A program made the position numbers and the translations under genes. From positions 1 to 64,000 of the forward strand of contig NZ_LYPF02000007.1 of assembly GCF_001661595.2 (NCBI RefSeq): a stretch of DNA of 64,000 nt. The letters are read 5' to 3'. The notes under the pieces were generated by a model, which searched no databases, had not been told where the DNA came from, and saw nothing but the letters and a program-made list of their open reading frames with translations. Of the stretch, positions 30,514-36,848 are shown in pieces (the stretch's first letter is position 1; each line of letters starts with the position of its first letter). Source of the stretch: Crocinitomix algicola. Lineage in GTDB: Bacteria > Bacteroidota > Bacteroidia > Flavobacteriales_D > Crocinitomicaceae.

Positions 30514-30549
30514 TCAGCCAATCGGCACAAATAATTAAGTAATTTTATA

Positions 30550-30587
30550 AAAAGGTTGTGGTGGATTTTCATCACAACCTTTTTTTA
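30550..30587 (+). terminator. Terminator between the skp pair and murI
   Basis: AAAGGTTGTG / CACAACCTTT stem with a 12-base loop and a run of T, 38 bases after the second skp stop. It lies directly before the murI start at 30600. Confidence 0.85.
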
Positions 30588-30599
30588 TATTTTAGCACA

Positions 30600-31394
30600 G
30601 TGGAAAAACCAATAGGCATATTTGATTCTGGTATAGGTGGACTAACGGTGGCAAAAGCAGTTTCTAAAATATTGCCAAATGAACGTTTTATTTATTTTGG
30701 TGACACAGCTCATTTGCCTTATGGCGATAAATCTAAAGAAGCGATTCAACGTTACTCTAAAGCGATTACTAAATTTTTACTGGCAAATAACTGTAAAGCA
30801 ATTGTTATCGCTTGTAATACGGCCTCAGCTGTATCGTACAAATACTTGAGGGATAAATATCAGGGAACAATTCCTATAATTAATGTAATCGACCCTATTA
30901 TTGAAGAGGTTGTTCGTTTTGGTGACCACAAAAAAGTAGGGCTCATAGCAACCCGAACAACTGTTGCTTCTGGGGTTTATCAAGAAAAGATGAGTCGAAG
31001 AAACCCTTTGGTAGAAATGGCTGTTTTACCAACACCCCTTCTGGCTCCAATGATAGAAGAAGGATTCAGCAAGGATAAAATTAGTAAATCAGTGATCGAA
31101 AATTATTTAAGTAATCCGATTTTTGAAGGAATTGATGGTCTCATTCTTGGTTGTACTCATTATGTGCTAATTAAAGAGGAAATAAATGAGTTTTTTAATG
31201 GACGAATCAAGTTATACGACTCGACGGATATCGTCGCCCTTAAAATGAAGCAAATTTTTGAAAAGGAAGAAATGCTTTGTGATAGTAAACAAGGAGTAAA
31301 CCACTTTTATGTGTCGGATATTACGGAAGGATTTCAAGATTCTACACTTCGTTTTTACGGAGATAATCTAAAACTTGAATTGCTAAAACTTTAA
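30600..31394 (+). CDS. murI: Glutamate racemase
   Basis: Converts L-glutamate to D-glutamate for peptidoglycan in the cytoplasm. The 264-residue sequence contains PIGIFDSGIGGLTVAK near the N-terminus, IYFGDTAHLPYGDKS, the first catalytic cysteine in VIACNTASAVS, and the second in LILGCTHYVLI. Start is the GTG at 30600, 13 bases after the terminator; a GTG further upstream at 30558 would put the hairpin in the coding region and adds residues absent from the family. No clear Shine-Dalgarno. How murI is transcribed past the hairpin is unclear: read-through or a promoter inside the preceding gene. Confidence 0.93.
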   Translation: MEKPIGIFDSGIGGLTVAKAVSKILPNERFIYFGDTAHLPYGDKSKEAIQRYSKAITKFLLANNCKAIVIACNTASAVSYKYLRDKYQGTIPIINVIDPIIEEVVRFGDHKKVGLIATRTTVASGVYQEKMSRRNPLVEMAVLPTPLLAPMIEEGFSKDKISKSVIENYLSNPIFEGIDGLILGCTHYVLIKEEINEFFNGRIKLYDSTDIVALKMKQIFEKEEMLCDSKQGVNHFYVSDITEGFQDSTLRFYGDNLKLELLKL

Positions 31395-31399
31395 TTGCT

Positions 31400-31993
31400 A
31401 TGGCCGGTTGTAAAGGTGTGCATTTGTACCTTAAAAATACTGACGATGTTAATTGTGAACTGATTCCCTATGTCCAAGCGCTGCGGGTACCAGCTTCGAT
31501 TTCGAAAAAGGATTATCACTCAATTTTAGATAAAAACAGACAAAATATCCCTGTTTTACTAATTGAAGAAAATATAAAGTTTCTTAATCAACACACGAAA
31601 GACGTCTTTTATTTGAATCCAGAGGCTGCTTTAAGCAATTTTAATTCAAAATCAAACTCAATTATCGGGGGCTTAGCCAAAACCTATGCTGATGCAAAAA
31701 ATTGGGAACGATGGAATATTGACTTTATTGATTTTAATCCTCAGCCGAAAACCATAGAAAATTCAATATTAGGGAGTGAAGGCTGGAACTTTATTCCATC
31801 TAAAAACGAATTGTATGGATGGATGATAACTAGTCTTACTGTTCCTGTTTTCTTTCATTGTCCAAGAGCGTTAAGTGAAATTCAGGAGGTTATCCAAGAA
31901 GTCGACTTGAAAGGGGTTTATATCGGAGAGAATTACAATTGGTCTTCGAATAAATTAACTGAATTAAAAACAATTATTGACTGGTTAGGGTAG
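31400..31993 (+). CDS. Divergent ThiE/TenI-fold protein, probably non-catalytic
   Basis: A 197-residue protein without a recognised annotation. By eye it aligns along its length with the canonical ThiE in this window (36228-36848): ALRVPASISKKDYHSIL with QLRIKQDELDIETI; IPVLLIEENIKFL with TAVFLINDRVEL; SIIGGLAKTYADAKNW with KIIGGTANQLKDCLKH; IDFIDFNP with ANYIGLGP; and VPVFFHCPRALSEIQEVI with IPVFAIGGLTLEDIKLL. The ThiE substrate residues (QLRxK, NDR, GVHLG, IGG) are mostly lost, so catalysis is unlikely. It lies 5 bases after murI and upstream of the TPP riboswitch. Confidence concerns the fold; the function is unknown. Confidence 0.55.
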   Translation: MAGCKGVHLYLKNTDDVNCELIPYVQALRVPASISKKDYHSILDKNRQNIPVLLIEENIKFLNQHTKDVFYLNPEAALSNFNSKSNSIIGGLAKTYADAKNWERWNIDFIDFNPQPKTIENSILGSEGWNFIPSKNELYGWMITSLTVPVFFHCPRALSEIQEVIQEVDLKGVYIGENYNWSSNKLTELKTIIDWLG

Positions 31994-32082
31994 TTTTTAA
32001 AATGGCAGTGTAAATCAAAATAAATTCGTTCTGAATTCATTCTTTCTTCTCACATAATTTGCCTAACTTAGATAAGATTAAT

Positions 32083-32090
32083 TAAATTTG
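32083..32090 (+). promoter_or_regulatory. -7 box of thi operon promoter
   Basis: TAAATTTG matches TAnnTTTG, and a TTG at 32059-32061 lies 21 bases upstream. Predicted start near 32095, at the very 5' edge of the riboswitch. Confidence 0.65.
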
Positions 32091-32091
32091 T

Positions 32092-32178
32092 GTCGTCTCT
32101 AAGGGGTGTCCGTTTGTAAATGGACTGAGATTATACCCATTGACCTGATCAGGTTAGAACCTGCGTAGGGAAGGTGAC
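32092..32178 (+). ncRNA. TPP (thi-box) riboswitch
   Basis: Contains the diagnostic elements in order: GGGGTGTCC, GGACTGAGATTATACCC, and ACCTGATCAGGTT...AACCTGCGTAGGGAA. The CTGAGA and GCGTAGGGAA cores that bind thiamine diphosphate are intact, with P2/P3 helices able to form around TCCGTTTG/TAAATGGA. It lies in the leader of thiS, the first gene of the thiamine operon, and is predicted to lower expression when TPP is plentiful. Confidence 0.95.
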
Positions 32179-32202
32179 TTTTAAAAGACATATCTATGTC
32201 GA

Positions 32203-34451: not shown

Positions 34452-35084
34452 GTGATTAAAATTTTGTTTACATATCCGGAAACCTTACCGCATGAAACGT
34501 TGCTCATAAAAAACCTAATGGTTGATGATTGGGATTTTCTACACGTGCGAAAACCGGATTATGATATAAATGAAATGATAAATTTTCTTGAATTGATACC
34601 AGAATTTCACCATAAAATTGTTCTTCATTCTCATTACGAATTGATTAAGAAGTTTGATTTAGCGGGTATAAATCTTAACCGCAAAGCTTTAGCAAATATC
34701 TGTTTTGAAGATGAGTTAACAAGTAGCTGTGACATTCGTGAACTTAGCGTCGATAAAGGTAGGTTAAGTGTACTGGGCTCAAGGCCAGACCTTATCTCTT
34801 ATTCGGCGCATAGTTTTTCAGAAGTTTTGAATTTGCCATTGGATACGGATTATGTTTTTTTAAGTCCCATTTTTGATAGCTTTTCTAAAGAGAATTATCA
34901 ATCGGCTTTTGAGGATCATGACATACTTAAATCGTTCCTCAAAGATGTCGATGACAAAATAATTGCACTGGGAGGAATTAACGAAGACCGTGTAAAATTA
35001 TGTAAAAATTTAGGTTTTGATGGTTATGCCGTTTTAGGTGATATTTGGAATCGTTATTTCACTTTTGTTGAAACAATTCAATGA
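34452..35084 (+). CDS. Second thiamine phosphate synthase-like protein (TenI/ThiE-like)
   Basis: A 210-residue TIM-barrel of the ThiE/TenI group, of the form common as a second ThiE in Bacteroidota thi operons. Visible: FLHVRKPDYD at the phosphate/pyrimidine end, KIVLHSHYEL, GINLNRKAL, ISYSAHSFSEV, DYVFLSPIFDSFSKENY and IIALGGINEDRV. The loop after SPIFDS and loss of NDR suggest altered activity, for example TenI-like thiazole tautomerase or a weakened synthase. It begins at the GTG at 34452 with AAGAGG just before it, and its last 4 bases overlap thiD (ATGA). Confidence 0.78.
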   Translation: MIKILFTYPETLPHETLLIKNLMVDDWDFLHVRKPDYDINEMINFLELIPEFHHKIVLHSHYELIKKFDLAGINLNRKALANICFEDELTSSCDIRELSVDKGRLSVLGSRPDLISYSAHSFSEVLNLPLDTDYVFLSPIFDSFSKENYQSAFEDHDILKSFLKDVDDKIIALGGINEDRVKLCKNLGFDGYAVLGDIWNRYFTFVETIQ

Positions 35085-35820: not shown

Positions 35821-36222
35821 ATGAAAACAGGAAAGGTTTTACTACATATCATGAATGGTTTAAATGCTTTAGCGCTTTTCGTATTGGTGTTTAAATCGGT
35901 TTTTTTTGTGCCGTGGTTATACGATGTGAGTTTTTACCATGTATTACTTGTTTTAGCTGCATTATATGGGATTAAAACTTGGGTGCAAATCAAATTTGAG
36001 GTTGATGATCCAATTCGAATAAATAAGATTTCTAATGTGTTTTTTCATGGAGGAATGGTTATGATACTGCTTGGAATAGTCATGCGTGTAATGCATTGGC
36101 CTTTTAGTTTTTTGCCCATTTTAGCTGGAGCCCTAGGAGTTTTTGTCGCCTTTATTTTATCAATGGTTTTATCACCTAGCGTTGAAAGATCAACTAACCC
36201 AGATATATTAGATGATTTATAG
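35821..36222 (+). CDS. Small four-helix membrane protein in the thi operon
   Basis: A 133-residue protein with four predicted transmembrane helices and no recognised domain. The third helix is followed by VMRVMHWPFSFLPILAG; a KxxHWP-type motif recalls GldL and related small Bacteroidota membrane proteins, but the similarity is short. It starts 2 bases after thiD and ends 5 bases before thiE, so it is co-transcribed and coupled. A role in thiamine or precursor transport, or a passenger gene, is possible; neither is shown by sequence. Confidence 0.65.
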   Translation: MKTGKVLLHIMNGLNALALFVLVFKSVFFVPWLYDVSFYHVLLVLAALYGIKTWVQIKFEVDDPIRINKISNVFFHGGMVMILLGIVMRVMHWPFSFLPILAGALGVFVAFILSMVLSPSVERSTNPDILDDL

Positions 36223-36227
36223 TTGAA

Positions 36228-36848
36228 ATGGAATTACACAAACTACAATATATAACCAATGGTGCTTCTCATCAAGAAATTATTGATGAGGTAAAAGCAG
36301 TTCTTAATGCAGGTTGCAAATGGATTCAGCTTAGAATTAAGCAAGATGAATTAGATATTGAAACGATTGCTAAAGAGGTTCAACTGCTTTGTGCCAATAC
36401 GGCTGTTTTTTTGATTAATGATCGGGTCGAATTAGCCAAAAAATTAAATGCGGATGGTGTGCATCTTGGATTAGAGGATATGCCTATTTCTCAAGCTCGT
36501 CATTTATTAGGTGAAGGTAAAATTATTGGTGGTACAGCAAATCAATTAAAAGACTGTTTAAAGCATCAACTTGCAGGAGCTAATTATATTGGTCTAGGAC
36601 CATTTAGAACAACAAATACTAAAAAGAAACTAAGTCCAATTCTCGGTTTGAAGGGGTATAATCACATCGTACCAAAATCTGATTGTACTTTAAGGATACC
36701 TGTTTTTGCAATAGGTGGCTTAACGTTAGAGGATATTAAACTTTTAAAAAAAGAAACTGGAATTACAGGCGTCGCTGTTTCAGGTTTGGTTAGAACAGCA
36801 TCAAACAAAAAAGACTTGGTGGAACGAATCAATAAAATTTTGAATTAA
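36228..36848 (+). CDS. thiE: Thiamine phosphate synthase
   Basis: Joins HMP-PP and thiazole phosphate to thiamine monophosphate. The 206-residue protein retains the catalytic pattern: WIQLRIKQ (QLRxK), VFLINDRVELA (NDR), GVHLGLEDMP, IGGTANQ, YIGLGPFRTTNTKK (GPxxxT) and IPVFAIGGLT, then GVAVSGLV. It is thus the likely active ThiE of three ThiE-fold proteins here (others at 31400-31993 and 34452-35084). The stop is directly followed by the thiG ATG. Confidence 0.93.
   Translation: MELHKLQYITNGASHQEIIDEVKAVLNAGCKWIQLRIKQDELDIETIAKEVQLLCANTAVFLINDRVELAKKLNADGVHLGLEDMPISQARHLLGEGKIIGGTANQLKDCLKHQLAGANYIGLGPFRTTNTKKKLSPILGLKGYNHIVPKSDCTLRIPVFAIGGLTLEDIKLLKKETGITGVAVSGLVRTASNKKDLVERINKILN

Follow-up and report, generated by a model that had tools for sequence, protein, structure and literature searches.

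The gene at positions 31,400 to 31,993 (+ strand) of the window, by which we mean the whole 64,000-nucleotide stretch of Crocinitomix algicola DNA analysed here, encodes a 197-aa protein, referred to below as X, that is a descendant of ThiE and the third ThiE-type protein of its region. We consider it fairly probable that X is a non-catalytic paralogue of the kind termed a pseudoenzyme, namely a copy of a ThiE from the same bacterial family that has lost catalysis and is kept for another job by way of a conserved surface patch; this different job is probably a non-enzymatic one. In particular, the ThiE copy would have lost the ability to bind the pyrimidine pyrophosphate, magnesium and the thiazole phosphate, and X would act by binding a partner through the patch. 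A search of the literature returned nothing on such a relative of ThiE.

Gene X and its descent from ThiE

The X open reading frame runs from an ATG at 31,400 to a stop at 31,993, starts 5 nt past the stop of the preceding gene and, read upstream in frame, meets a stop codon before any alternative start; it is a genuine gene. The gene directly 5' of it (30,558–31,394, + strand), an open reading frame whose order is conserved in relatives, is one that we take, from its sequence and general knowledge, to be murI (glutamate racemase); its translation may in fact begin a little 3' of the GTG at 30,558. The second ompH-like gene is separated from murI by a terminator-like hairpin (30,549–30,584, + strand), in which a stem of 16 pairs precedes a run of T. 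On the other side of X is a thiamine pyrophosphate (TPP) riboswitch (32,092–32,188, + strand; Rfam RF00059, 61.3 bits) that serves the downstream thi genes. Directly 5' of this riboswitch is a match to a Bacteroidota-type promoter pattern, TTTG-N21-TAAATTTG (32,058–32,090, + strand); about five chance matches to the pattern are expected per window, and the match is suggestive through its position only. X ends at 31,993, upstream of the riboswitch start on the same strand, and therefore lies outside the riboswitch-controlled RNA and does not belong to the TPP-riboswitch regulon. The earlier note had placed X next to a TPP riboswitch; the riboswitch is real, but X is not among the genes it controls.

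The two other ThiE-type genes of the region, which the earlier note had counted correctly, are a TenI-like gene (34,452–35,084, + strand; Pfam TMP-TENI, 36 bits), which is not the closest relative of X, and a canonical ThiE (36,228–36,848, + strand; TMP-TENI, 159 bits), which represents the family from which X derives. The alignment of X with this ThiE over its whole length, originally made by eye, was recovered by BLASTP (a score of 39.3 bits, with 24% of residues identical across 192 columns; pairwise E 8e-9) with the same segments paired (SIIGGLAK.. with KIIGGTAN.., and VPVFF.. with IPVFAIGG..). When the window X protein was searched against Pfam there was no match, and against the curated NCBIfam thiE model it scored 14.7 bits (cut-off 227), well short of what would class it as a ThiE. 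Five of its orthologues, however, exceed the 27-bit cut-off of TMP-TENI (PF02581), with 34.6 (G006), 30.8 (G003), 30.1 (G008), 28.3 (G001) and 27.2 bits (G005). Genes like X are easily mistaken for thiamine phosphate synthase genes during annotation, and in auxotrophs a gene mis-annotated in this way could be miscounted as a member of the vitamin B1 pathway.

The comparison of profiles proposed in the earlier note left little doubt as to ancestry. A profile of nine X proteins aligned with one of 12 ThiEs over 195 columns (hhalign, E 5.6e-27), establishing homology with the PF02581 family, whereas the same X profile gave E 0.1 with the TenI-like family of 34,452–35,084. These values indicate that X is derived from ThiE (TIGR00693) and not from the neighbouring TenI-like gene, an origin that we reject. 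An AlphaFold2 model of X, built on nine sequences, is an eight-stranded barrel (mean pLDDT 70, pTM 0.73), the best match of which in the PDB, as found by Foldseek, is the ThiE structure 1xi3 (E 3.1e-6, TM 0.70), with TenI (1yad) also matched; X is therefore predicted to be a ThiE-type barrel, as had been supposed. A sequence search of the PDB with X gave nothing meaningful.

Loss of the active site and retention without thiamine synthesis

We scored 14 conserved ThiE positions, which from general knowledge of ThiE we take to be contacts with pyrophosphate, magnesium and the thiazole phosphate, on an alignment with ThiEs of the same family and phylum. ThiEs keep 13 or 14 of these positions (all 14 in the canonical ThiE of the window), whereas ten X proteins keep between none and five, and the X of the window keeps two. 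The QLRxK, NDR and GVHLG sites were already described as lost; indeed, the QLRxK, ND and GVHLG..D of ThiE align in X with H-x-Y-x-K, EE and F-x-L..E. The phosphate loops of the thiazole half (T-x-T-K, GG and S) are gone as well, in that X aligns just the K of the first loop and has CP in place of GG and G in place of S. Judged by these replacements, thiamine phosphate synthesis cannot be expected of X.

TenI, a thiazole tautomerase (PDB 1yad, 3qh2; NCBIfam PRK07695), is an earlier repurposing of the TMP-TENI barrel, a ThiE-like barrel with a function other than that of ThiE, and provides the second-best kind of structural match to X. Unlike TenI, X is without the phosphate loops and is not tied to the ThiG thiazole pathway, and it shows no match to the TenI-like family that its own genome encodes. 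Four genomes (G001, G002, G004 and G006) keep X without a true ThiG. Moreover, both thiC and canonical ThiE are missing from 7 of the 14 X-bearing genomes (G001, G002, G004, G006, G012, G033 and G138; completeness 84–99%), these absences being read from draft genomes, with G008 (67% complete) left out as evidence of loss. X is thus kept even in bacteria that have apparently lost the capacity to make vitamin B1. In G006 (98% complete), thiC, ThiE, ThiG, PnuT and a TPP riboswitch were all searched for and not found; here several in-frame stops mark the TenI-like/ThiE-like gene that follows X (L011 8807–9420) as a pseudogene, yet X itself is intact. (Next to this pseudogene, on its 3' side, is a simple repeat whose translation would be a long stretch of valines.) These observations give no support to a main role for X in acting on a thiamine intermediate or in binding ThiE or ThiG, functions of the kind that the earlier note had raised.

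A broader possibility is that X, as an accessory of thiamine metabolism, aids synthesis or uptake through binding to thiamine, to thiamine phosphates or to a transporter. The neighbours of X are indeed thiS/thiC in the window, as they are in G137 and three further Crocinitomix genomes, and in G012, G033 and G138 a short form of the gene (see below) overlaps the start of the gene for PnuT, a family that carries thiamine in Bacteroides (PMC5613172). X stays adjacent to thi genes or PnuT in several relatives, but not in G030, in which it is distant from the thi genes. Together with this separation, the gene content of G006, the position of X outside the riboswitch-controlled RNA and the loss of the phosphate-binding loops make an accessory role rather unlikely, although some link to thiamine may still remain, given the thi and PnuT neighbours.

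X evolves fast yet under purifying selection. Identity between most congeners is 20–43%, and dN/dS is 0.13 for the G003–G005 pair and 0.15–0.17 for pairs that include G001, which lacks thiC. That X is a decaying duplicate retained by chance, as its fast divergence and the existence of truncated forms might suggest, seems to us highly improbable: the gene is intact in all 14 genomes, across three genera, including G006 with its pseudogene neighbour, and one of its motifs (YGW) is invariant. The low dN/dS and the retention of X without the pathway make it hard to see X as a relic in decay or as a protein whose role is limited to making thiamine.

Other thi genes of the genus showed several peculiarities. 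The TenI-like gene is retained in three Crocinitomix genomes without thiC, canonical ThiE or ThiG (L015 7977–8609, L057 2841–3473 and L016 12771–13388), and in G004 its GG phosphate loop is changed to GE. In G001 a short remnant of thiD (TANTIQTEDEF; L015 7737–7922) lies 3' of the TenI-like gene, which suggests that the thi operon was lost recently. The ThiE of C. catalasitica (L017 13184–13816) is unlike other Crocinitomix ThiEs and clusters in the tree with ThiEs of other genera, which suggests that it has been replaced. Judged by its gene content, C. catalasitica ATCC 23190 (G007) is a thiamine prototroph.

Distribution of X, the paired motif and the half-length forms

Homologues of X exist well beyond the strain studied here. 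The X profile was run against three sets of genomes, drawn from the family (240), the order (355) and the phylum (393). It identified the gene in nine of nine Crocinitomix genomes and, outside Crocinitomix, in just two genera of the same family among the genomes sampled, namely g23 (G030) and g5 (G012, G033, G137 and G138), for a total of 14 genomes; no X was found beyond these three genera in the Bacteroidota genomes sampled. Outside genera g1, g5 and g23, the profile matches that were read proved to be canonical ThiEs, as are most of the matches there, and were rejected. One further candidate carrier, G016, matched in a single-sequence search, was likewise discarded since the match was its canonical ThiE. 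Scanning the genome contigs with the single X sequence returned no relatives, whereas scanning with the profile returned seven Crocinitomix loci; a search of plasmids gave no match.

X differs from nearly all ThiEs in carrying a paired motif. One half, N-x-E (K100-N101-W102-E103 in the window, encoded at 31,697–31,708, + strand), lies on helix 5 and is present as N-x-E/D in all 14 X proteins; the other, YGW (Y139-G140-W141, 31,814–31,822, + strand), lies just before strand 7 and is invariant in all 14. Among 52 ThiEs, both halves occur in two, those of G016 and G139, which belong to other genera of the same family, and the other 50 have neither YGW nor a full N-x-E; thus N-x-E/D and YGW covary. 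The G016 and G139 ThiEs keep all 14 catalytic positions, X was not detected in either genome, and the ThiEs of X-bearing genomes are without the paired motif.

The location of this motif, judged by sequence position and predicted secondary structure, bears on what X might do. The invariant residues of X fall on helix 5 and just ahead of strand 7, not at the barrel mouth, and the paired motif may form a putative binding patch on the outer face of the barrel, in its C-terminal half; because of where these residues lie, the putative partner would most likely be a protein. The same residues speak against the possibility that X is a new enzyme reusing the barrel mouth for another reaction. Such a change would have a precedent in the repurposing of the TMP-TENI barrel in TenI, and purifying selection on X would fit it, but we find no conserved set of polar residues at the C-termini of the strands, the strand 2 region is absent from the X of G001, G003 and G005, and in g5 the whole N-terminal half is missing. 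We regard a new catalytic activity as quite improbable.

The forms of X found outside Crocinitomix are shortened. The X of G030 (g23) has 173 aa, and the g5 forms have 118–135 aa and cover the C-terminal half alone, so that what remains of X in this genus is the half that bears the motif. In profile comparisons the g5 forms gave E 4.2e-13 with X and E 2.4e-5 with ThiE. Mis-called starts do not explain their length, since in both G137 and G012 the frame spans 120 aa from stop to stop. The N-terminal half is thus dispensable for X in g5. One g5 form, when modelled, gave a partial barrel (pLDDT 79, pTM 0.71), which had no match in the PDB at E < 1e-3. Half-barrel (beta-alpha)4 proteins, for example the halves of HisF, have been discussed in the context of barrel evolution, and the g5 forms resemble such proteins in their predicted partial barrel and roughly half length. 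Unlike half barrels of the HisF type, the g5 forms appear to have arisen through shortening of a full barrel within one bacterial family.

How X and the motif-bearing ThiEs are related was addressed with a tree. With the YGW columns removed, X and the G016 and G139 ThiEs fall on one side of a branch with support of 97/90, the X branches being long; however, a grouping of X with Crocinitomix ThiEs was not rejected by the AU test (p 0.31), which does not decide between an origin from a YGW-bearing ThiE and one from a Crocinitomix ThiE. The branch order is weak and, given the AU test and the long X branches, the order of events is offered as a proposal. The simplest story would be that a patch-bearing ThiE existed in the family and was duplicated, after which catalysis stayed with one copy and the patch with the other; the ancestral ThiE of the group may thus have held both functions, later split between ThiE and X. 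The outcome is a natural series, comprising a ThiE with an extra patch, a full-length pseudoenzyme and a half barrel, which lets the change from enzyme to non-enzyme be tested and bears on how much of the barrel the new function requires.

Gene neighbourhood and a candidate partner

In every Crocinitomix locus with a readable upstream gene, murI precedes X, sometimes with one small gene between them. In other genera, a small membrane protein is encoded directly 5' of X. The gene order in G012 and G033 is murI, a small gene, the membrane protein gene, X and PnuT; in G137 the membrane protein gene and X lie ahead of thiS and thiC; and the contig of G138 starts just 5' of the membrane protein gene. 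A homologue of this membrane protein is encoded in the window itself, within the thi operon (35,821–36,222, + strand), as indicated by the alignment of the two sets of proteins with hhalign (E 1.1e-16). Close homologues of the membrane protein (>120 bits) occur in nine genomes of the family, all of which bear X.

Based on this arrangement of genes, the small membrane protein encoded beside X in other genera is possibly the partner of X, and would be the first candidate to consider. The membrane protein is not always beside X, however, and its wider family, found in 140 of the 240 genomes of the taxonomic family at E 0.01, is common in genomes without X; in G027, where the membrane protein gene comes after murI, X was not detected. 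The wide distribution of the family and the case of G027 weaken the idea of a strict partnership with X. We put forward only tentatively, as something possible rather than probable, the fuller account in which X represents an undescribed family of ThiE-derived pseudoenzymes, with a half barrel in one genus, whose function would have resided first in a bifunctional N-x-E/YGW ThiE, would then have been split off to X, and would be exerted jointly with the small membrane protein in a context other than thiamine synthesis.

Three further features of these loci were seen. The membrane protein of the window (35,821–36,222) weakly resembles the start of GldL. In two genera, several genomes have a gene of 134–138 aa, belonging to no known Pfam family, that separates murI from X or from the membrane protein gene (for example, L012 6217–6624 and L064 7546–7956). 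In genomes with PnuT, a TPP riboswitch lies between a PnuT/NadR-like kinase pair and a TonB-type receptor, not 5' of PnuT (L066 5631–5727, and at matching places in G002, G004 and G005).
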